DNA of 64,000 nt from Emticicia agri (lineage in GTDB: Bacteria; Bacteroidota; Bacteroidia; Cytophagales; Spirosomataceae), in NCBI RefSeq assembly GCF_004168285.1, contig NZ_SEWF01000022.1, positions 1-64,000 on the forward strand. The letters are read 5' to 3'. This document shows positions 35,291 to 47,743 of the stretch, in pieces (the stretch's first letter is position 1; the number at the start of each line of letters is the position of its first letter). The notes beneath the pieces were generated by a model. That model saw only the letters and a program-made list of their open reading frames with translations, searched no databases and was not told where the DNA came from. The position numbers were made by a program, and so were the translations under genes.

Positions 35291-36757
35291 ATGAAACTTA
35301 ATCAATCTTTACTCTCTGACCCTTCTTTAACGCAACTTCCCGAAAAAGTCTTACAATTTGGTACAGGTGTTTTGCTTCGTGGCTTGTGTGATTATTTTAT
35401 CGACAAAGCCAATAAAGAGGGCATATTTAATGGTAGAATTGTGGTTGTTAAATCGACTGATTCGGGCGGAGCAGATGCTTTTGCCGAGCAGGATAATCTT
35501 TACACCATCTGTGTAAGAGGTATCGATAAAGGCGTTGCTAAAGAAGAAAATATCATTTCTGCGGCTATTAGCCGGGTACTGTCAGCACAAAGCCAATGGG
35601 CTGAGATTCTGTCAACCGCTAAAAATCCGGCTATCAGCATAGTTATTTCCAATACTACCGAAGTAGGGCTTCAATATGTAGAAGAAAGCATCAGCCAGAC
35701 TCCTCCGGCTTCTTTTCCGGCTAAACTCACTACGTGGTTATATGAAAGATTTCAGGCAGGGCTTCCGGGTGCGGTGATTATTCCGACCGAGTTGATAGTA
35801 GGCAATGGAGATAAACTGAAAGAGATTGTTCTGCAATTATGTGCTTTCAACCAACTGCCTGATAAATTCGTAGAGTGGGTTAACAAAGAAAACAGTTTCT
35901 GTAATTCGCTGGTGGACAGAATTGTGCCGGGTAAACCTAAGGGAGACAGCCTGAAAGAATTAGATGCGAAATTAGGATACAAAGACGACCTGCTAACTAT
36001 TGCTGAAGTATATAGGTTATGGGCTATCGAAGGCGATGAAAAAGTAAAAGAAACTTTATCTTTCGCTGAAGCAGACCCGGGAGTAAAAATAGAAAAAAAT
36101 ATTGAGCAGTATCGAGAGCTAAAATTACGTATGCTCAATGGTACACATACCCTGATGTGTGGTATGGCTTATTTATCAGGTTTTGAGACTGTAAAAGAAG
36201 CCTTAGCCGACGAACTGACAGAGAAGTTTATTACGATTCTGATGACGACCGAGATTGTTCCGGCAATTCCGTATAAAATACAGGCAAAAGTTTGTCAGCG
36301 TTATGGCAGAGAGGTATTAGACCGATTCCGTAACCCTTACTTAGAGCATCAATGGATAAGCATTACCTTACAATATACCATGAAGATGCGTATGCGGAAT
36401 ATTCCATTATTGTTGAATTATTATAAAGAGTTTAATACAGTTCCACAATATTTTGCCCGTGGCTTTGCGGCTTACTTGCTCTTTATGCGTGCCGTGAAAG
36501 AAGAGAATGGTAAGTATTTTGGTCAACGAGGGGGAGAGTTTTATCCGATTCAGTGTGATGCAGCCCCTTATTTTTATCAGGTATGGCAGAATCACTCAGC
36601 CGATGAGGTAGTACAGGAAGTATTAGCCAATAAAGAGCTTTGGGGAAGCGATTTAACCCAGCTTTCAGGCTTTGCGGGTAATGTAAGTACTCACTTGTCT
36701 AATATGATGATGATAGGCGTAAGAGAAGTAGCTTCTGCCTTGAATGTGTATGCTTAA
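35291..36757 (+). CDS. uxaB: Tagaturonate reductase
   Basis: NAD-dependent reduction of D-tagaturonate to D-altronate in galacturonate breakdown. The 488-residue protein of the mannitol dehydrogenase superfamily has the N-terminal nucleotide-binding block LQFGTGVLLRGLCDYFIDKA. ISNTTEVGLQY follows, and then the catalytic-domain motif ELKLRMLNGTHTLMCGMAYL with the conserved Lys-Asn-His set partly visible. Length fits UxaB. The usual partners uxaA and uxaC are not beside it. A palindrome after the stop separates it from the convergent exonuclease. Confidence 0.9.
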   Translation: MKLNQSLLSDPSLTQLPEKVLQFGTGVLLRGLCDYFIDKANKEGIFNGRIVVVKSTDSGGADAFAEQDNLYTICVRGIDKGVAKEENIISAAISRVLSAQSQWAEILSTAKNPAISIVISNTTEVGLQYVEESISQTPPASFPAKLTTWLYERFQAGLPGAVIIPTELIVGNGDKLKEIVLQLCAFNQLPDKFVEWVNKENSFCNSLVDRIVPGKPKGDSLKELDAKLGYKDDLLTIAEVYRLWAIEGDEKVKETLSFAEADPGVKIEKNIEQYRELKLRMLNGTHTLMCGMAYLSGFETVKEALADELTEKFITILMTTEIVPAIPYKIQAKVCQRYGREVLDRFRNPYLEHQWISITLQYTMKMRMRNIPLLLNYYKEFNTVPQYFARGFAAYLLFMRAVKEENGKYFGQRGGEFYPIQCDAAPYFYQVWQNHSADEVVQEVLANKELWGSDLTQLSGFAGNVSTHLSNMMMIGVREVASALNVYA

Positions 36758-39413: not shown

Positions 39414-41069
39414 CTATTTCTTTGCTAATTTACTATTTTGATAGCCATAAGCAAAATATATTACCAGACCGATAACCATCCAGATAATAAACATACGCCA
39501 GTTTGACCAGCCTAATTCGGTCATCAGATAAAGATTAGTGAGTATCCCCAATACAGGCAATAAAGAGAAGTTATATTTAAAACTCATAGCAGCAAGATAA
39601 AGCCATACAAGCCAGAAGACAAAAAGTAAAGGTCTTTCTTCCATATGTTTCATTACATCTCCCTCTCTGTAGGTCAGATATAAAGCCACTAACAACAAAG
39701 GCACTGCAAAATATTTAGCATTGACATAAGGAATCTTGAATTTGGCATCTTTACTCATTCCTTTCGTATCCAGAACCAAAACACCTGCACAAACCAATAT
39801 AAAAGCAAAGAAAGTACCCACACTGGTAAGGTCAACAAAGAAACTCATTTTAAAGAAAAGAGACGGAACAGCTACCAATACACCTGTAACAATAGTAGCA
39901 AAACTTGGGGTTTTAAATTTAGGGTGAATCTCTCCAAATTTTTTGCCCAATAAGCCATCACGGCTCATCGTCATCCAGATACGAGGTTGCCCAATCTGAT
40001 AAGCTAATAAGGCACTGGTAATAGCTACTACGGCACTCACTGAAATAACCCCTGCTACAAAATCAAAGCCTACTTTCTGGAATACATAAGCCAAAGGGTC
40101 AGCTACATTCAACTCTGTATAATTAACCATTCCGGTCAGGACTGTTGTAATGAGTACATATAATACCGTACAGATTAATAAGCACAATAACATGGCTCTT
40201 GGTAAATCCCGCTGTGGATTTTTGGCCTCTTCGGCAGTCGTTGAAATAGAGTCAAAACCAATAAAGGCAAAGAAAACCGAAGCTACACCACTCAATACTC
40301 CATTTACCCCATTAGGTGCAAAAGGCGACCAGTTGGCAGGTTTCACATAAAACACACCCACTATGATTACCAACAGAATCACCCCTAATTTAAGGGCTAC
40401 CAATATATTACTCGCATTGCGTGATTCTTTGATACCAATATAACACAAGGAAGTAATCAATACGGTAACTAATCCGGCAGGAAGATTGAAAATCAATTTG
40501 ATAAAACCTAAATCGGGAGCATCTGCAAAAGCTTTGGCCAATGTTTTAGTGTTAAGTGCAATATCAGTTCCTCCTGCCTGAACAATTTCGTAAGCCTCTT
40601 TGGCAGAAGTATAATCTATTGCTAACCACATAGGAAAATGAATACCAAAACCTTCAAGCATTCCAATGAAATAACTCGACCATGAAATGGCTACCACCAT
40701 ATTTGATACGGCATATTCCAGGATTAATGCCCAGCCGATAATCCATGCCAAAACCTCACCAAATGATACATACGCATAAGTATAAGCACTACCGCTCACA
40801 GGAACCATAGAGGCAAACTGTGCGTAACTCAAGGCTGTGAAAACGCAGGCAATTGCCACAAACACAAACAGAAGTGATACCGCAGGGCCACCATTGAAAC
40901 TCGCCAGACCAATAGTACTGAATATTCCGGCACCGATAATGGCAGCAATTCCAAGAGTGGTCAGGTCTCTTACGCCAAGAATACGGGACAATGAGTGTCC
41001 GTCGTCTCCTTTTTTTGATTCTTCTATTGCTTTTTTGACGTCTTTCCTCCGAAAAAGTGAATTACTCAT
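39414..41069 (-). CDS. CAT-like APC-family amino acid permease
   Basis: A 551-residue transporter with 12-14 membrane helices. LGVRDLTTLGIAAIIGAGIFSTIG is the cationic amino acid transporter signature in helix 1. IGFDSISTTAEEAKNPQRDLPRAML and QPRIWMTMSRDGLLGKKFGEIHPKFKTP are the CAT-type loops. It is the first gene of the minus-strand group with the NUDIX hydrolase and the second permease. The insert around residues 150-185 (between helices 4 and 5) is longer than in many relatives. Substrate is inferred only as an amino acid. Confidence 0.9.
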   Translation of the reverse strand: MSNSLFRRKDVKKAIEESKKGDDGHSLSRILGVRDLTTLGIAAIIGAGIFSTIGLASFNGGPAVSLLFVFVAIACVFTALSYAQFASMVPVSGSAYTYAYVSFGEVLAWIIGWALILEYAVSNMVVAISWSSYFIGMLEGFGIHFPMWLAIDYTSAKEAYEIVQAGGTDIALNTKTLAKAFADAPDLGFIKLIFNLPAGLVTVLITSLCYIGIKESRNASNILVALKLGVILLVIIVGVFYVKPANWSPFAPNGVNGVLSGVASVFFAFIGFDSISTTAEEAKNPQRDLPRAMLLCLLICTVLYVLITTVLTGMVNYTELNVADPLAYVFQKVGFDFVAGVISVSAVVAITSALLAYQIGQPRIWMTMSRDGLLGKKFGEIHPKFKTPSFATIVTGVLVAVPSLFFKMSFFVDLTSVGTFFAFILVCAGVLVLDTKGMSKDAKFKIPYVNAKYFAVPLLLVALYLTYREGDVMKHMEERPLLFVFWLVWLYLAAMSFKYNFSLLPVLGILTNLYLMTELGWSNWRMFIIWMVIGLVIYFAYGYQNSKLAKK

Positions 41070-41273
41070 GGGTGTGTAGCTATTTAGGGTTTTAGCATAT
41101 TTGAATATGCCTGATAAGTTTGTTATGGTATATTTTCCAAAACTATCGAAAAAAAGATAATACTATTCTATGAAAAGCAAAATTTTTATCGAATGAAGTG
41201 TATTTTTATTCGCCTTTTTTCAGATTATCCTATTTTAATAAAGCATTTTGTTGAAATTTTATTCTGAAAAAAC

Positions 41274-41305
41274 TTGTCTATGCTTTCTTGTGTAGCTACC
41301 TTTGC
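41274..41305 (+). promoter_or_regulatory. Promoter of the dehydrogenase operon
   Basis: TTG at 41274-41276, a 20-nt spacer, and TACCTTTG at 41297-41304 followed by C. Full consensus match. It predicts transcription start near 41311, at the left edge of a palindromic operator, and supports the GTG start at 41369. Confidence 0.75.
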
Positions 41306-41310
41306 AGGTA

Positions 41311-41330
41311 CAACTTGTATAGACAAGTTG
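41311..41330. promoter_or_regulatory. GntR-type operator palindrome
   Basis: CAACTTGTATAGACAAGTTG is a 20-bp palindrome with arms CAACTTGT and ACAAGTTG and centre TATAG. The core GTATAGAC is typical of GntR/HutC-family operators. A half-site identical to one arm, AACTTGTCTA, lies at 41271-41280 over the -33 box. A regulator bound here would cover the transcription start and block the promoter. No GntR-family gene is nearby. Confidence 0.65.
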
Positions 41331-41368: not shown

Positions 41369-42421
41369 GTGAAAGCAGCGGTTTATCGTGGAAAAGAAGA
41401 AATACTGGTAGAAGAAGTAAACATGCCAACCTTAGAAGAAGGGGAAGTATTGCTTGAAATAGAAGCCTGTAATGTATGTGGTACTGACCTACGCACCTAT
41501 CGGCATGGAGATAAAAAAATCACGCCTCCCCGTATTTTAGGCCATGAGTTTTGTGGCAGAGTGGTAGAGTCGAGAAGTACCGAAAAAGCTATAAAAGTAG
41601 GTGACAGAGTGCTGATGTACATTGTTTTATCGTGCGGAGAATGTCGCTATTGCAAAGCAGGTCGAGAGAATTTATGCCAGAGCCGCACAACCATGGCATA
41701 CCATGTAGATGGAGCTTTTGCGCCTTATATGAAAGTTCCGGCAAAGGCTGTTCGCCGGAAACAACTGTTTAAAGTAAATGAAGAGATGCCGTCAGAGTAC
41801 CTGAGTCTTGCCGAGCCTTTGGGTTGTGTGATTAATGCCCACGGACGAGGTCGGTTAGAGGTTGGACTAAAAGATAAAGTAGCCATTATAGGTGCCGGCC
41901 CCATTGGCGTGATGCACGCTTTAGTTTCCCGTTTTCAGGGGGCACAGCAGGTAGATGTGTATGATGTGATGCAAACCCGTCTGGAAAAAGCAACGCAATT
42001 TGACATTGACCATGTGGTAAAGGTAGAGAAAGAAAATGGACATTTAGAAAAGGCGCTTGAACTGACAGAGGGTTTAGGTTATGATGTAGTGATTGTAGCC
42101 GTGAGTGTAGCCCAGGCTCAGACCGATGCGCTGGAAATAGCCGGAAAAGCAGGCAGGGTTGAATTTTTCGGTGGATTACCTAAATCGAACCCATTTGCTA
42201 CGCTGAATACTAACCACCTGCATTACAAAGAACTACGTATTAGTGGCTCCTACTCTGAAAAAATGAGTGATTTTCAGGCGGCTACTGCTTTGGTACAAAA
42301 GAAGAGTTTTCCGGCTGATAAGATTGTTACCCATACTCTTCCATTAGACAGAATCACCGAATCATTTACATTGATGGAATCGGGTGAGGCTCTGAAAGTA
42401 AGTATTAAACCTAATCTGTAA
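41369..42421 (+). CDS. Zinc-dependent alcohol/polyol dehydrogenase (MDR family)
   Basis: A 350-residue medium-chain dehydrogenase. The start is a GTG at 41369 (VKAAVYRGKEEILVEE); the frame is open upstream, but that part precedes the predicted transcription start. Catalytic zinc ligands appear in CNVCGTDLRTYRHG and GHEFCGRVVE, and the structural zinc in SCGECRYCKAGRENLC. The NAD-binding motif is VAIIGAGPIGVMHALV. It resembles sorbitol or threonine-type dehydrogenases. An aldehyde dehydrogenase gene follows 8 nt later, so the pair likely oxidises an alcohol or sugar alcohol to an acid. Confidence 0.88.
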   Translation: MKAAVYRGKEEILVEEVNMPTLEEGEVLLEIEACNVCGTDLRTYRHGDKKITPPRILGHEFCGRVVESRSTEKAIKVGDRVLMYIVLSCGECRYCKAGRENLCQSRTTMAYHVDGAFAPYMKVPAKAVRRKQLFKVNEEMPSEYLSLAEPLGCVINAHGRGRLEVGLKDKVAIIGAGPIGVMHALVSRFQGAQQVDVYDVMQTRLEKATQFDIDHVVKVEKENGHLEKALELTEGLGYDVVIVAVSVAQAQTDALEIAGKAGRVEFFGGLPKSNPFATLNTNHLHYKELRISGSYSEKMSDFQAATALVQKKSFPADKIVTHTLPLDRITESFTLMESGEALKVSIKPNL

Positions 42422-42429
42422 AACCTGAT

Positions 42430-43905
42430 ATGAATACTGATTTAATAGCAGAGGTAAAAGGGCGTACATGGGGACTTTTTATTGACGGTGAATCTACTCC
42501 GGCAGCAGACGAGTCAACCATTACCATTTATTCTCCGGCTAATGGTGAAGCCGTTGCTACAATTGCCCGTGCAACCGTAGCAGATGTAAATAAAGCTGTA
42601 GAAACCGCACAGACGGGTTTTAAAGAATGGTCAAAACTGACAGCCTATCAGCGCGAGAGTATTATTAAAAAAGCAACGGCCTATGTACGCACCCAAGCTG
42701 ACCGGATAGGTATGCTGATGGCTTTAGAGCAAGGTAAGCCTTTCAATCAGTCTAAATCAGAGATTATCGGTTCTTGCGATACATTAGATTATTTCGCTTC
42801 AGAGGGGGTAAGAGTAGAAGGGTATGTAAATCAGACTGAAAAAGCAGGAGTTTTCTCGATGGTGAAATATTATCCGGTTGGGGTATGTGCTCTAATTACT
42901 CCCTGGAACTATCCTGTATCTTTATTATCCTGGAAATTAGGTCCTGCGCTGGCAGTAGGTTGTTCGGTAGTAGTGAAACCTACAACCGTTACCCCTCTAT
43001 CCCCAATGGCATTTTGTATGGCTTTGGTAGAAGGCGGCATTCCGGCTAAAGTTATCAGCGTGCTGACAGGTCAGGGGGCAGTGGTAGGAGATAATCTGGC
43101 GAAACACCCTCTGGTAAAAAAAGTTGCCATGACAGGCTCTACTGAAACAGGTAAAAAACTCATGCAAACAGTAGTACCTTATTTAAAGAAAATATCTTTA
43201 GAATTAGGTGGCCAGTGCCCTGCCATTGTTTGTGAAGATGCCGACATACAAAATGCGGCTACGGTAATAGCTTATAAAGGATTCAGAAACATGGGGCAGT
43301 CGTGCAGTAGTGTCAATCGGGTATATGTGCATGTATCCAAACATCAAGAATTTGTGGCTGAACTAAAAAAACAGGCTGAAAAACTTACTATTGGTGATGG
43401 GGTAAGCGATGGTTCAGTAGATTTAGGGCCAATGGCCACAGCAGATGGCGTACTGACCTCGAAGCTACATGTAGAAGATGCCATCAGCAAGGGCGCTTCA
43501 TTGGTTACAGGAGGCAGAGCACCAGAAGGAGAGGTTTATCAAAAAGGGTTTTATTTTCTGCCTACTATTTTAGATAATTGCCATGCTGCCATGAAAGTAA
43601 TGCAGGAAGAAACCTTTGGGTGTATAGTACCTGTGGAGACTTTTGAAACAGTAGATGAGGCTATTGAGAAAGCCAATAAGACCAATTATGGCTTAGTAGC
43701 ATACGCCTTTACAAAAGACTTTAAAACCAGTATGCTATTGGGTGAGCAATTAGAAGCCGGAACAGTATGTATTAATAACGGGGCTGTAAATACTAACTAT
43801 GCCCCCTATGCTGGCTGGAAAGACTCAGGATTTGGCGTAGAACTATCAAGAAATGCAGTTTTTGAATACCTTGAAACCAAGCATATTAAAATAGAGGGGG
43901 TTTGA
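42430..43905 (+). CDS. NAD(P)-dependent aldehyde dehydrogenase (SSADH-like)
   Basis: A 491-residue aldehyde dehydrogenase. Motifs are ITPWNYPVSLLSWKLGPALA, the coenzyme loop MTGSTETGKKLM, the general base in LELGGQCPAIV, and the catalytic Cys in NMGQSCSSVNRVYV. The closest common annotation would be succinate-semialdehyde or glutarate-semialdehyde dehydrogenase. It forms a two-gene operon with the zinc dehydrogenase, under the GntR-like operator. Its stop codon directly abuts that of the convergent acetyltransferase gene. Confidence 0.9.
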   Translation: MNTDLIAEVKGRTWGLFIDGESTPAADESTITIYSPANGEAVATIARATVADVNKAVETAQTGFKEWSKLTAYQRESIIKKATAYVRTQADRIGMLMALEQGKPFNQSKSEIIGSCDTLDYFASEGVRVEGYVNQTEKAGVFSMVKYYPVGVCALITPWNYPVSLLSWKLGPALAVGCSVVVKPTTVTPLSPMAFCMALVEGGIPAKVISVLTGQGAVVGDNLAKHPLVKKVAMTGSTETGKKLMQTVVPYLKKISLELGGQCPAIVCEDADIQNAATVIAYKGFRNMGQSCSSVNRVYVHVSKHQEFVAELKKQAEKLTIGDGVSDGSVDLGPMATADGVLTSKLHVEDAISKGASLVTGGRAPEGEVYQKGFYFLPTILDNCHAAMKVMQEETFGCIVPVETFETVDEAIEKANKTNYGLVAYAFTKDFKTSMLLGEQLEAGTVCINNGAVNTNYAPYAGWKDSGFGVELSRNAVFEYLETKHIKIEGV

Positions 43906-45180: not shown

Positions 45181-45335
45181 AATCTCTCCTAATTTTAATA
45201 AAACAATGCACAAAATCTATACCATACTGAATTTCAACTTTTTGGCCTCAATTAGCCATGTTTTCAACAGGTTATAAATTTCTCTCACTAATATAAACAA
45301 GTTTTCCTGAAAAAACGTTTTCTTTGCAAAACTTA

Positions 45336-45418
45336 TCTCAAAAGGGGTGCCTTAATATAACGGGCTGAGATTATACCCATCGAACCTGATACAGGTAATT
45401 CTGTCGAAGGGAGAGAGA
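45336..45418 (+). promoter_or_regulatory. TPP riboswitch (THI box)
   Basis: The conserved thiamine-pyrophosphate aptamer is clear: GGGGTGCC at 45344-45351, GGGCTGAGATTATACCC at 45362-45378, GAACCTGATACAGGTAAT in the next block, and GTCGAAGGGAGA at the end. The CTGAGA and ACCTGA cores that bind TPP are intact, and TCTC (45336-45339) can pair with GAGA near 45411 to close P1. It lies about 125 nt before a TonB-dependent receptor gene. Two small hairpins follow (CTATAG...CTATAG near 45425 and CTAAAG-AGC-CTTTAG near 45481) that may form the switch. Confidence 0.95.
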
Positions 45419-45544
45419 ACAGGACTATAGTATGCGCAGCTATAGCACTGTTTAAAAATTCCAATTAAAATTTTGTTTCACTAAAGAGCCTTTAGAGGTT
45501 CACAAGATTTTACTCCTTTGCCTTGTTAAAATTTTCGTCATGTA

Positions 45545-47743
45545 ATGAAAAAATTAACAAAAAATGTTCTAAGCATTCTTTTCAATCAATCACAATCTCT
45601 TAGAAAAACCGTTCCGGTTCTTATCTTGTTTTTGGGTCTTTTCCCGGTTGCCTTTGCACAGGACGATTCTACCAGAATCAAAGAGTTAAACGAGGTAGTC
45701 GTAAAGTCCACTCGTGCCAATGAAAAAACCGGTATGGCCTTTACCAATGTGTATCAGCGGGATATTAAAAAGCAAAATCTTGGGCAAGACCTGCCTTTTT
45801 TACTGAATCAACTACCATCGGTGGTGGTAAGCTCTGATGCAGGGGCAGGCGTTGGTTATACAGGTATCCGTATTCGTGGTTCAGACCCTACCCGTATCAA
45901 TGTTACGCTGAATGGTATTCCTTATAATGACTCTGAATCTCAGGGCACATTCTGGGTTAATATGCCCGATTTTGCTTCAAGTGTACAAAGTATTCAGGTA
46001 CAGCGAGGGGTCGGTACCTCTACTAATGGCTCAGGTGCTTTCGGCGCCAGTCTGAATATCAGTACTTTGGGATACGAAAGTGAAGCCTTTGGTGAAACCA
46101 ACCTGTCTTACGGGTCTTTTAATACCATGAAAGCCAATATACTGGCAAGTACAGGCTTACTGAATAATCATTTTGTGATAGACGCCCGTCTGTCAAAATT
46201 AGTCTCTGATGGATATGTGGACAGAGCCAGTTCTGACCTAAAATCTTTTTATGTGTCTGCCGGGTACTACAATAAGAGTAACTTTGTTAGATTCAATGTT
46301 TTTTCGGGCAAAGAACGCACTTATCAGTCATGGAATGGATTACCGGAATACTTACTGAAAATCGACCGCACATACAACGCCTTTACTTATCCTAATCAGG
46401 TTGATAACTACCAGCAAGACCACTATCAATTAATTTCTTCTTTTAAACTAAGCGACCATTGGACATTCAATCCGACTTTGCATTATACCAAAGGAAAAGG
46501 CTATTATGAAGAATTCAAAGAGGGTGCTGACCTGTCAGCCTATAAGTTGCCGAATGTAACGATTGGCGGAGATACCATTACAAGCACTGATTTGGTACGC
46601 AGAAAATGGTTGGATAATCACTTTTATGGCATTACTTATTCGCTTGATTATCAAAACAATAAAAAGTTAACAGCCAATATCGGTGGTGCATGGAACAGAT
46701 ACGAAGGAGACCACTTTGGGGAGGTAATCTGGACTAAATTTGCCATGACTCCTTCTAATGATTATCGCTGGTATAAGAGCTATTCTGAAAAGACCGATTT
46801 CAATATTTTCGGAAAATTGTTTTATCAGCTAACAGATAAATTTAATCTGTTTGGAGATGTGCAATACCGTAAAGTAGATTATGACATGAATGGAACGGCC
46901 GATAAATTACAGAACATTACCCGTAATACTTCATTCCAGTTCTTTAATCCTAAACTGGGCATGAATTACCAGTTAAACAATCAGGCTTCTTTCTACGCTT
47001 CTTATGCCGTGGGTAATAAAGAACCTAACCGTACTGATTTTATAGATAATGTAAAAGTACCTGAACCTGAACATCTGGAAGATTTAGAAGCCGGGTATCG
47101 CTGGGCTAATCAAACCATAAGTTTTGATGCTAACTTCTATTATATGAACTACAAAAACCAGTTGGTACTGACGGGACAGGTAAATGGTGTAGGTGAAGCC
47201 ATTCGTGTAAATGTACCCAAAAGTTATAGAACAGGGATAGAATTGGTTGCTAACTGGAAATTTGCCACTAAATGGCGTTTAAATGCCAATGCTACTTTCA
47301 GCCAGAATAAGATTAAGAATTTTACTGAAACCATTGTGAATTATGATGGTGAAGCCGATAAAGTAAATCAGTTTACAAAAACAGATATTTCTTTCTCGCC
47401 GAATATCATTGCAGGCGGACAATTGTCATATTCTCCGGCAAAAAACCTTGAATTTGCCTGGTTGCCCAAATATGTAGGTAAACAGTATATGGATAATACG
47501 GCTAACGACAACCGTAGCCTGAATGCCTTTTTTGTTAATGATTTACGGGCCAACTATACTATTAATCCGAAAATTGTGAAAGAAATTACTTTTAGTGTAT
47601 TAGCCAACAACATTCTGAATCATTTATACGAATCGAATGGCTATACCTATAGTTATATCTATGACAGACAGATAATTACCGAAAATTTTTACTACCCACA
47701 GGCAGGTACTAATTTTCTGGTAGCCGTAAAAGTCAGACTCTAA
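45545..47743 (+). CDS. TonB-dependent outer membrane receptor, predicted thiamine transporter
   Basis: A 732-residue outer membrane receptor. A signal peptide ends VAFAQDDS (about residue 40). A TonB-box/plug region follows (LNEVVVKSTRANEKTG, IRIRGSDPTRINVTLNGIPYND, VQRGVGTSTNGSGAFGASLNI), and then a 22-strand barrel ending FLVAVKVRL with a terminal aromatic-type strand. There is no CarboxypepD-like N-terminal extension, so it is not a SusC. The TPP riboswitch in its leader points to thiamine or a precursor as ligand, taken up when TPP is low. No pnuT or thi gene lies next to it. Confidence 0.9.
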   Translation: MKKLTKNVLSILFNQSQSLRKTVPVLILFLGLFPVAFAQDDSTRIKELNEVVVKSTRANEKTGMAFTNVYQRDIKKQNLGQDLPFLLNQLPSVVVSSDAGAGVGYTGIRIRGSDPTRINVTLNGIPYNDSESQGTFWVNMPDFASSVQSIQVQRGVGTSTNGSGAFGASLNISTLGYESEAFGETNLSYGSFNTMKANILASTGLLNNHFVIDARLSKLVSDGYVDRASSDLKSFYVSAGYYNKSNFVRFNVFSGKERTYQSWNGLPEYLLKIDRTYNAFTYPNQVDNYQQDHYQLISSFKLSDHWTFNPTLHYTKGKGYYEEFKEGADLSAYKLPNVTIGGDTITSTDLVRRKWLDNHFYGITYSLDYQNNKKLTANIGGAWNRYEGDHFGEVIWTKFAMTPSNDYRWYKSYSEKTDFNIFGKLFYQLTDKFNLFGDVQYRKVDYDMNGTADKLQNITRNTSFQFFNPKLGMNYQLNNQASFYASYAVGNKEPNRTDFIDNVKVPEPEHLEDLEAGYRWANQTISFDANFYYMNYKNQLVLTGQVNGVGEAIRVNVPKSYRTGIELVANWKFATKWRLNANATFSQNKIKNFTETIVNYDGEADKVNQFTKTDISFSPNIIAGGQLSYSPAKNLEFAWLPKYVGKQYMDNTANDNRSLNAFFVNDLRANYTINPKIVKEITFSVLANNILNHLYESNGYTYSYIYDRQIITENFYYPQAGTNFLVAVKVRL

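Follow-up and report, generated by a model that had tools for sequence, protein, structure and literature searches.

A predicted operator of a HutC-type GntR repressor at an ADH-ALDH promoter of Emticicia agri, and its regulon by comparison with related genomes

The closest described systems are those of NagR (YvoA) from Bacillus subtilis and DasR from Streptomyces coelicolor, which combine a GntR with a UTRA domain and supply the nearest solved structures (2wv0, 4u0v, 9i0v and 4zs8). As described for NagR (PMC4333415), Arg48 reads G at -4, Arg38 reads G at -5 and Gly69 anchors the wing, and the natural dre-sites are imperfectly symmetric, as is the site considered here. The phosphate and the sugar are held in NagR by Arg133, Arg135, Glu145 and Ser165. 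For the HutC subfamily the operator consensus is given as GTMTAKAC, and additional half-sites of GntR operators are placed 7-12 nt away (PMC4494728). Another GntR/HutC protein, TreR, governs the trehalose operon of Bacillus through a box, TTGTATATACAA, that is nearly the same as the present operator (PMC11356801). Likened by description are IolR of Corynebacterium glutamicum, likewise a GntR-type repressor of myo-inositol genes although from another phylum (PMC9603128), and FucR and ManR of Bacteroides thetaiotaomicron, GntR-family sugar regulators within Bacteroidota that were approached with the same comparative logic (PMC3878776). The latter two serve fucose and mannose pathways, and the portion of PMC3878776 drawn on here makes no mention of HutC, deoC or inositol.

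The window is a stretch of 64,000 nucleotides from Emticicia agri, whose genome (G000, 6.65 Mb) forms a clade with three others (together G000-G003). The features that concern the promoter under study are the following.

39414-41069, minus strand: divergent amino-acid permease, a syntenic marker that also adjoins this operator locus in G001-G004 and G007
41271-41286, plus strand: O1, the half-site AACTTGTCTA with a degenerate operator remainder; its CTTGTCT is shared without change by the orthologous promoters of G000-G003
41271-41280: half-site AACTTGTCTA, overlapping the -33 TTG
41273-41286: degenerate remainder of O1, CTTGTCTATGCTTT, four mismatches to the core
41274-41276, plus strand: -33 element TTG, inside O1, in the TTG-N20-TAnnTTTG register
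41297-41304, plus strand: -7 element TACCTTTG, 20 bp after the TTG
41311-41330, no strand assigned: O2, the predicted GntR operator CAACTTGTATAGACAAGTTG, core at 41314-41327, about +3 to +22
41369-42421, plus strand: ADH, a zinc-dependent medium-chain-type dehydrogenase (PF08240 and PF00107 over cut-off)
42430-43905, plus strand: ALDH, an NAD(P)-dependent aldehyde dehydrogenase that follows ADH in the same operon at a distance of 8 bp (PF00171, 492 bits)

The initial annotation had described a TTG-N20 promoter, a 20-bp palindrome and a half-site over the -33 box, and all three were found where it had placed them. TTG-N20-TACCTTTG has the form of a Bacteroidota sigma-A promoter (a TAnnTTTG -7 box with TTG 18-22 bp upstream); with the TAnnTTTG consensus spanning -12 to -5 in flavobacteria (PMC9723704), transcription of ADH-ALDH is predicted to start near 41309, and the ADH start was read as the GTG at 41369 (MKAAVYRG). 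In O2, 18 of the 20 bases agree with the reverse complement, the sole asymmetry being the A/G pair beside the central TA, and the 17-bp core of the site is invariant across G000-G003. When an 18-bp version of the palindrome was allowed up to three mismatches on both strands, O2 was the sole place in the window, against a mean of 0.18 in shuffles. From base composition, about 0.00014 exact copies of the half-site would be expected in the 40 bp upstream, both strands counted (a post hoc figure), whereas with one mismatch the half-site is not rare (7 matches in the window vs 5.6 expected).

Family and structure matches of both enzymes are generic and point to no one substrate: the NCBIfam models nearest to ADH are Tdh and IolM, all below cut-off, and ALDH is SSADH-like and below every equivalog cut-off. 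Elsewhere in the window, a tagaturonate reductase gene (35291-36757, plus strand, 573 bits vs a cut-off of 359) lies about 4.5 kb upstream of the promoter; the window scan at up to three mismatches found no operator match near it. Additionally, a TPP riboswitch (45333-45430, plus strand, 57.9 bits vs a gathering threshold of 54.3) precedes a TonB-dependent receptor gene (45545-47743) and suggests that the receptor carries thiamine or its precursors across the outer membrane.

With a probability of roughly 0.88, we read O2 as the operator bound by a GntR repressor of the HutC/UTRA type (gene at L014:5629-6339, minus strand) that governs ADH-ALDH together with a wider regulon and is released by an effector. 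An effector-free GntR dimer on O2, at the transcription start, would block the ADH-ALDH promoter, and the decayed O1 on the -33 box would perhaps help by binding GntR weakly. Binding of an effector would then release GntR; the likeliest candidate is a phosphorylated intermediate of the sugar or cyclitol kind. The same repressor would act on the iol operon, the SDR-ROK-SIS genes, the Gfo/Idh genes and the cytochrome-c-type genes, and probably on its own gene. That this is repression and not activation is suggested by site position only. Some GntR proteins are generally known to activate, and GntR bound at O2 might instead switch ADH-ALDH on; we hold this to be improbable, as O2 covers the start, downstream of the -7 box, and the -33 TTG falls inside the operator in six promoters whose core is perfect (deoC of G004, G007 and G035; gntR of L134, L141 and L169), positions that suit blocking. 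GntR sitting on such -33 operators would exclude sigma.

The regulon attributed to the repressor was assembled from the promoters that carry the site. Each of four promoters has an exact site in all four genomes of the clade (4/4 of G000-G003): those of ADH-ALDH, of iol, of an SDR gene followed by ROK and SIS genes, and of a 400-aa Gfo/Idh gene. An exact site also precedes a DUF7133-cytochrome c gene in G000-G002, where a PSD1/PSCyt cytochrome gene and a 481-aa Gfo/Idh gene each have a one-mismatch site upstream. The sites persist in promoters whose flanks differ among G000-G003; one- or two-mismatch sites without a regulatory look, inside genes or unconserved (L107, L113, L116 and L119, for example), were excluded. 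Overall, a regulon comprising the iol operon, the SDR gene with ROK and SIS, the Gfo/Idh dehydrogenases and ADH-ALDH is well supported by these comparisons, and the cytochrome-c-type genes probably belong to it. The latter encode proteins with DUF7133 or PSCyt1/PSCyt2/PSD1 domains (L008:4574-7435, L011:3730-6489 and L009:4052-6397, behind exact or one-mismatch sites), which are best known from Planctomycetes. A two-mismatch site, TTTGTATAGACAAA, precedes an M14-type peptidase gene in 4/4 of G000-G003 (L106:3011, L110:2983, L115:3055 and L120:3035), making this gene a candidate member. In Algoriphagus antarcticus a single exact palindrome is followed by genes for a TIM barrel, Gfo/Idh (61% identical to the 400-aa gene), gntR, SDR (58%), ROK, SIS and others, an operon that independently joins genes scattered in Emticicia.

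The iol operon is complete (iolB, iolC, iolA, iolG, a sodium symporter, an aldolase, iolD, iolE and a lacI-type gene) and is identified as a myo-inositol catabolic operon by scores over the curated cut-offs for iolB (314.5 against 205), iolC (380 against 300), iolG (450 against 355), the iolA-type MMSDH (553 against 448.5), iolD (899 against 715) and iolE (394 against 290); the aldolase, here called iolJ, falls under the equivalog cut-offs. Its promoter, TTG-N20-TAATTTTG in G000-G002, carries a pair of sites 38 bp apart. The upstream one, on the -33 box, is perfect in G003, has one mismatch in G001 and has four in G000 and G002; the other follows the -7 box. The lacI-type gene is the last of this operon (L017:3493-4536) and could encode a LacI-family regulator that reads the palindrome in place of GntR. 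This reading was rejected as very improbable: the genome G015, of another genus in the same family, has an iol operon orthologous to this one (57-86% identical), in which the lacI ortholog (60%) adjoins iolB, yet a site within three mismatches is absent from the 19 kb and the exact core is absent genome-wide, while in the sister clade B (G004-G010) the palindrome is present and no iolB scores over the family cut-off. Given its lacI gene, the iol operon may have a second regulator.

GntR remains the favored reader of the palindrome, and three GntR-domain genes were found in the genome. The candidate repressor gene (G000:C54, locus L014) lies on a contig other than that of the window and encodes an N-terminal winged helix (PF00392, 75.3 bits vs a cut-off of 27) and a C-terminal UTRA domain (PF07702, 69.1 bits vs 23.8), which places it in the HutC subfamily. 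The operator has the corresponding form N-GTMTAKAC-N, with GTATAGAC at the centre of O2 and of all exact copies. The protein scores below all equivalog cut-offs listed (HutC, TreR, PhnR, PhnF and LSA1692; the best is LSA1692 with 129 vs 275 bits); judged by its sequence, it would work like the named HutC-type equivalogs and is not filed as any of them. The other two proteins, C10 (GntR with Peripla_BP_3) and C1 (about 489 aa and probably of the MocR type, judged from its length only), also carry a GntR winged helix and might be the cognate regulator. Both were rejected, with as little probability left to them as to LacI: their loci (13-16 kb each) hold no match within two mismatches, and the UTRA-type gene has adjoining sites across genera.

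This association with the UTRA-type gene was followed through 98 genomes, the window's own and 97 relatives. A close ortholog of the GntR is present in 16/16 genomes that carry the exact core (E at most 3.1e-59), and the core occurs in 16 of 24 genomes with a close ortholog vs 0 of 74 without (Fisher 7.8e-13, uncorrected for relatedness, the line between close and distant orthologs being set by us at E 1e-58). Twelve of these 16 genomes carry an exact core no further than 1.3 kb from gntR. The exceptions are G000-G003, in which the gntR-side site is degraded to 2 to 4 mismatches, so that autoregulation of gntR may be weak in this clade. In the eight genomes with a close ortholog and without the exact core, the gntR loci show one mismatch in five cases and two to three in two; at the remaining locus, L065, no site was found within three mismatches. 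Among named Bacteroidota loci from the best 80 of 544 GntR relatives, 78 offer over 200 bp of upstream sequence. In 43/78 a site with no more than one mismatch was found in the 320 bp before gntR; at up to two mismatches the count is 60/78, against 0.35 expected from first-order Markov shuffles, and none was found within two mismatches in 18/78. Some of these open the operon with another, site-bearing gene (L147, L156, L159 and L161). The search for palindrome copies near gntR genes that the initial annotation had called for was thus positive, and its proposal of a distant HutC-type GntR repressor is well supported by the UTRA-type gene on another contig and the 16/16 co-occurrence. From these comparisons, O2 is very probably a binding site of the GntR repressor encoded elsewhere in the same genome. 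In G006, the gntR ortholog (C22, locus L055) has five in-frame stops with an exact operator still nearby; recent loss of the repressor or poor assembly is possible.

The 14-bp core CTTGTATAGACAAG has five exact copies in the 6.65-Mb genome and none for the reversed control; over the 98 genomes there are 40 matches vs 1 reversed, carried by 16 genomes, counts in which genomes are related and matches are not independent. Besides the five exact cores, the window's genome has four one-mismatch copies with the same TATAGA centre. All five zero-mismatch fits to the pattern CTTGTNTANACAAG share the asymmetric centre ATAG, and 11 further one-mismatch places have mixed centres (four with TATAGA), the reversed control also giving 11. 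The exact core therefore far exceeds chance, which the loose pattern by itself does not. O2 does lie inside the predicted transcript, but a palindrome that serves as an RNA leader stem or arose by chance is the remotest of the readings, chance being ruled out by the counts in the genome and its relatives, and the stem by same-centre copies kept in promoters with differing flanks, some of them on the -33 box, ahead of the start, where a leader stem is impossible.

Comparison with NagR indicates how the operator may be read. NagR Arg48, Arg38 and Gly69 align with R42, N32 and G63 of the Emticicia GntR, and these three residues are the same in 80/80 loci of the best 80 of 544 relatives. The residues for G at -4 and for the wing are thereby kept, as are those corresponding to Arg133, Arg135 and Ser165 at the phosphate. 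Unlike in NagR and DasR, where Arg at NagR position 38 reads the G at -5, Asn is found in all 80 of the best 80 of 544; the loss of Arg38 accompanies T for G at -5, with TTGT in place of TGGT, and the regulated genes are not amino-sugar genes. According to PMC4494728, Arg at this position is strongly tied to G/C and Asn weakly, non-significantly to A/T. With respect to TreR, the trehalos_R_Bsub model gives the Emticicia GntR 97 against a cut-off of 212 bits; the symmetric CTTGTATATACAAG is the commonest one-mismatch form at related gntR genes among the best 80 of 544.

For the effector, R129, R131, E141 and S162 align with NagR Arg133, Arg135, Glu145 and Ser165, a pairing read off the alignment by eye. 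By residue conservation only, a phosphorylated sugar would be the likeliest effector, a lead only because the Arg-x-Arg motif is widespread in the HutC subfamily (PMC4918961). A kinase (Khk-like, PF25270) and an aldolase (DeoC) adjoin gntR in other genera, an arrangement that would fit a phosphorylated intermediate in this role. The initial annotation had proposed the pathway substrate as the likely ligand; the conserved residues would rather favor a phosphorylated compound, and the regulon extends beyond a single pathway.

The locus itself appears to have changed its genes between sister clades. In G004-G010 a close deoC (at least 90% to the query) adjoins gntR, and neither an ADH ortholog at E 1e-90 nor an iolB over cut-off was found; in G000-G003, ADH and iolB are present and deoC is only distant (36-39%). 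In G004 and G007, whose loci were read, the same permease flanks the operator and is followed by deoC, gntR and a Gfo/Idh gene. In their deoC promoter, TTG-N20-TAnnTTTG, the -33 box is covered by a perfect operator; the window promoter has the same register, keeps only the left half of that operator and has its perfect operator further down. Set side by side, the ADH and deoC promoters agree in AACTTGTCTAT and the TTTG of the -7 box and differ in most of the spacer, and a MAFFT alignment did not align their operators. The two promoters are likely homologous, and the half-site looks like a decayed remnant of an older full operator, which describes it better than a designed half-site. An additional half-site of the kind known for GntR operators was considered and rejected, and the remnant is preferred, because the gap here is 30 nt, outside 7-12 nt. 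The retention of CTTGTCT in G000-G003 could be explained in part by the -33 box alone.

Upstream of gntR, a conserved element resembling a small RNA was observed (L014:6459-6500, minus strand; L264-L269 in other genera). It consists of a variable 5' hairpin, a 42-nt stretch and a terminator hairpin with a T run; the stretch is identical in 11 Emticicia genomes and agrees at 39/42 positions in G035, and no Rfam match was found over its place. In Emticicia its likely promoter overlaps the GntR site, and G004 and G010 have a second, shortened copy. A covariance model finds the element in 18/98 genomes of seven genera, and outside Emticicia and G035 it lies away from gntR, next to genes that we take to be rpoC and glmM, or a GDP-mannose dehydratase-like gene. 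A reading as a gntR leader was rejected, and an independent small RNA is more likely, because the element is found away from gntR in six further genera.

A HutC-type GntR switch is of a well-known kind; this regulon is newly worked out and well supported by comparison, which establishes regulator, operator, regulon and conservation at the level of sequence. In the literature searched, which was mostly open-access and did not extend to regulon databases, no description of this regulon was found, nor of HutC-type GntR control of inositol genes in Spirosomaceae; of the operator sequences, TTGTATATACAA was found in one paper and the three 14-mers in none. Inositol genes are given for 49% of 55 Spirosomaceae species in PMC9430895, and the Emticicia iol operon is one of several targets, a further difference from IolR.

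More tentatively, a Bacteroidota-wide clade of HutC-type GntR proteins (Asn at NagR position 38, operator CTTGTATANACAAG) might control genes for Gfo/Idh dehydrogenases, IolE-like TIM barrels, ketohexokinase-like kinases and DeoC-type aldolases that would make up a cyclitol or deoxy-sugar pathway not described before, in which a phosphorylated intermediate would serve as the effector. The operator would often be the -33 box itself, one Emticicia clade would have swapped deoC for ADH-ALDH behind the same promoter and gained the inositol operon, and the conserved small RNA may also be transcribed from the gntR-side promoter. By tying one palindrome to a regulator, an operator code and a regulon, the present analysis makes an uncharacterised Bacteroidota repressor clade testable with one protein and one duplex. 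An operator on the -33 box would provide a simple repression mechanism for Bacteroidota-type promoters, and the replacement of deoC by ADH-ALDH at one locus, behind seemingly the same promoter, would represent regulon rewiring between sister species.
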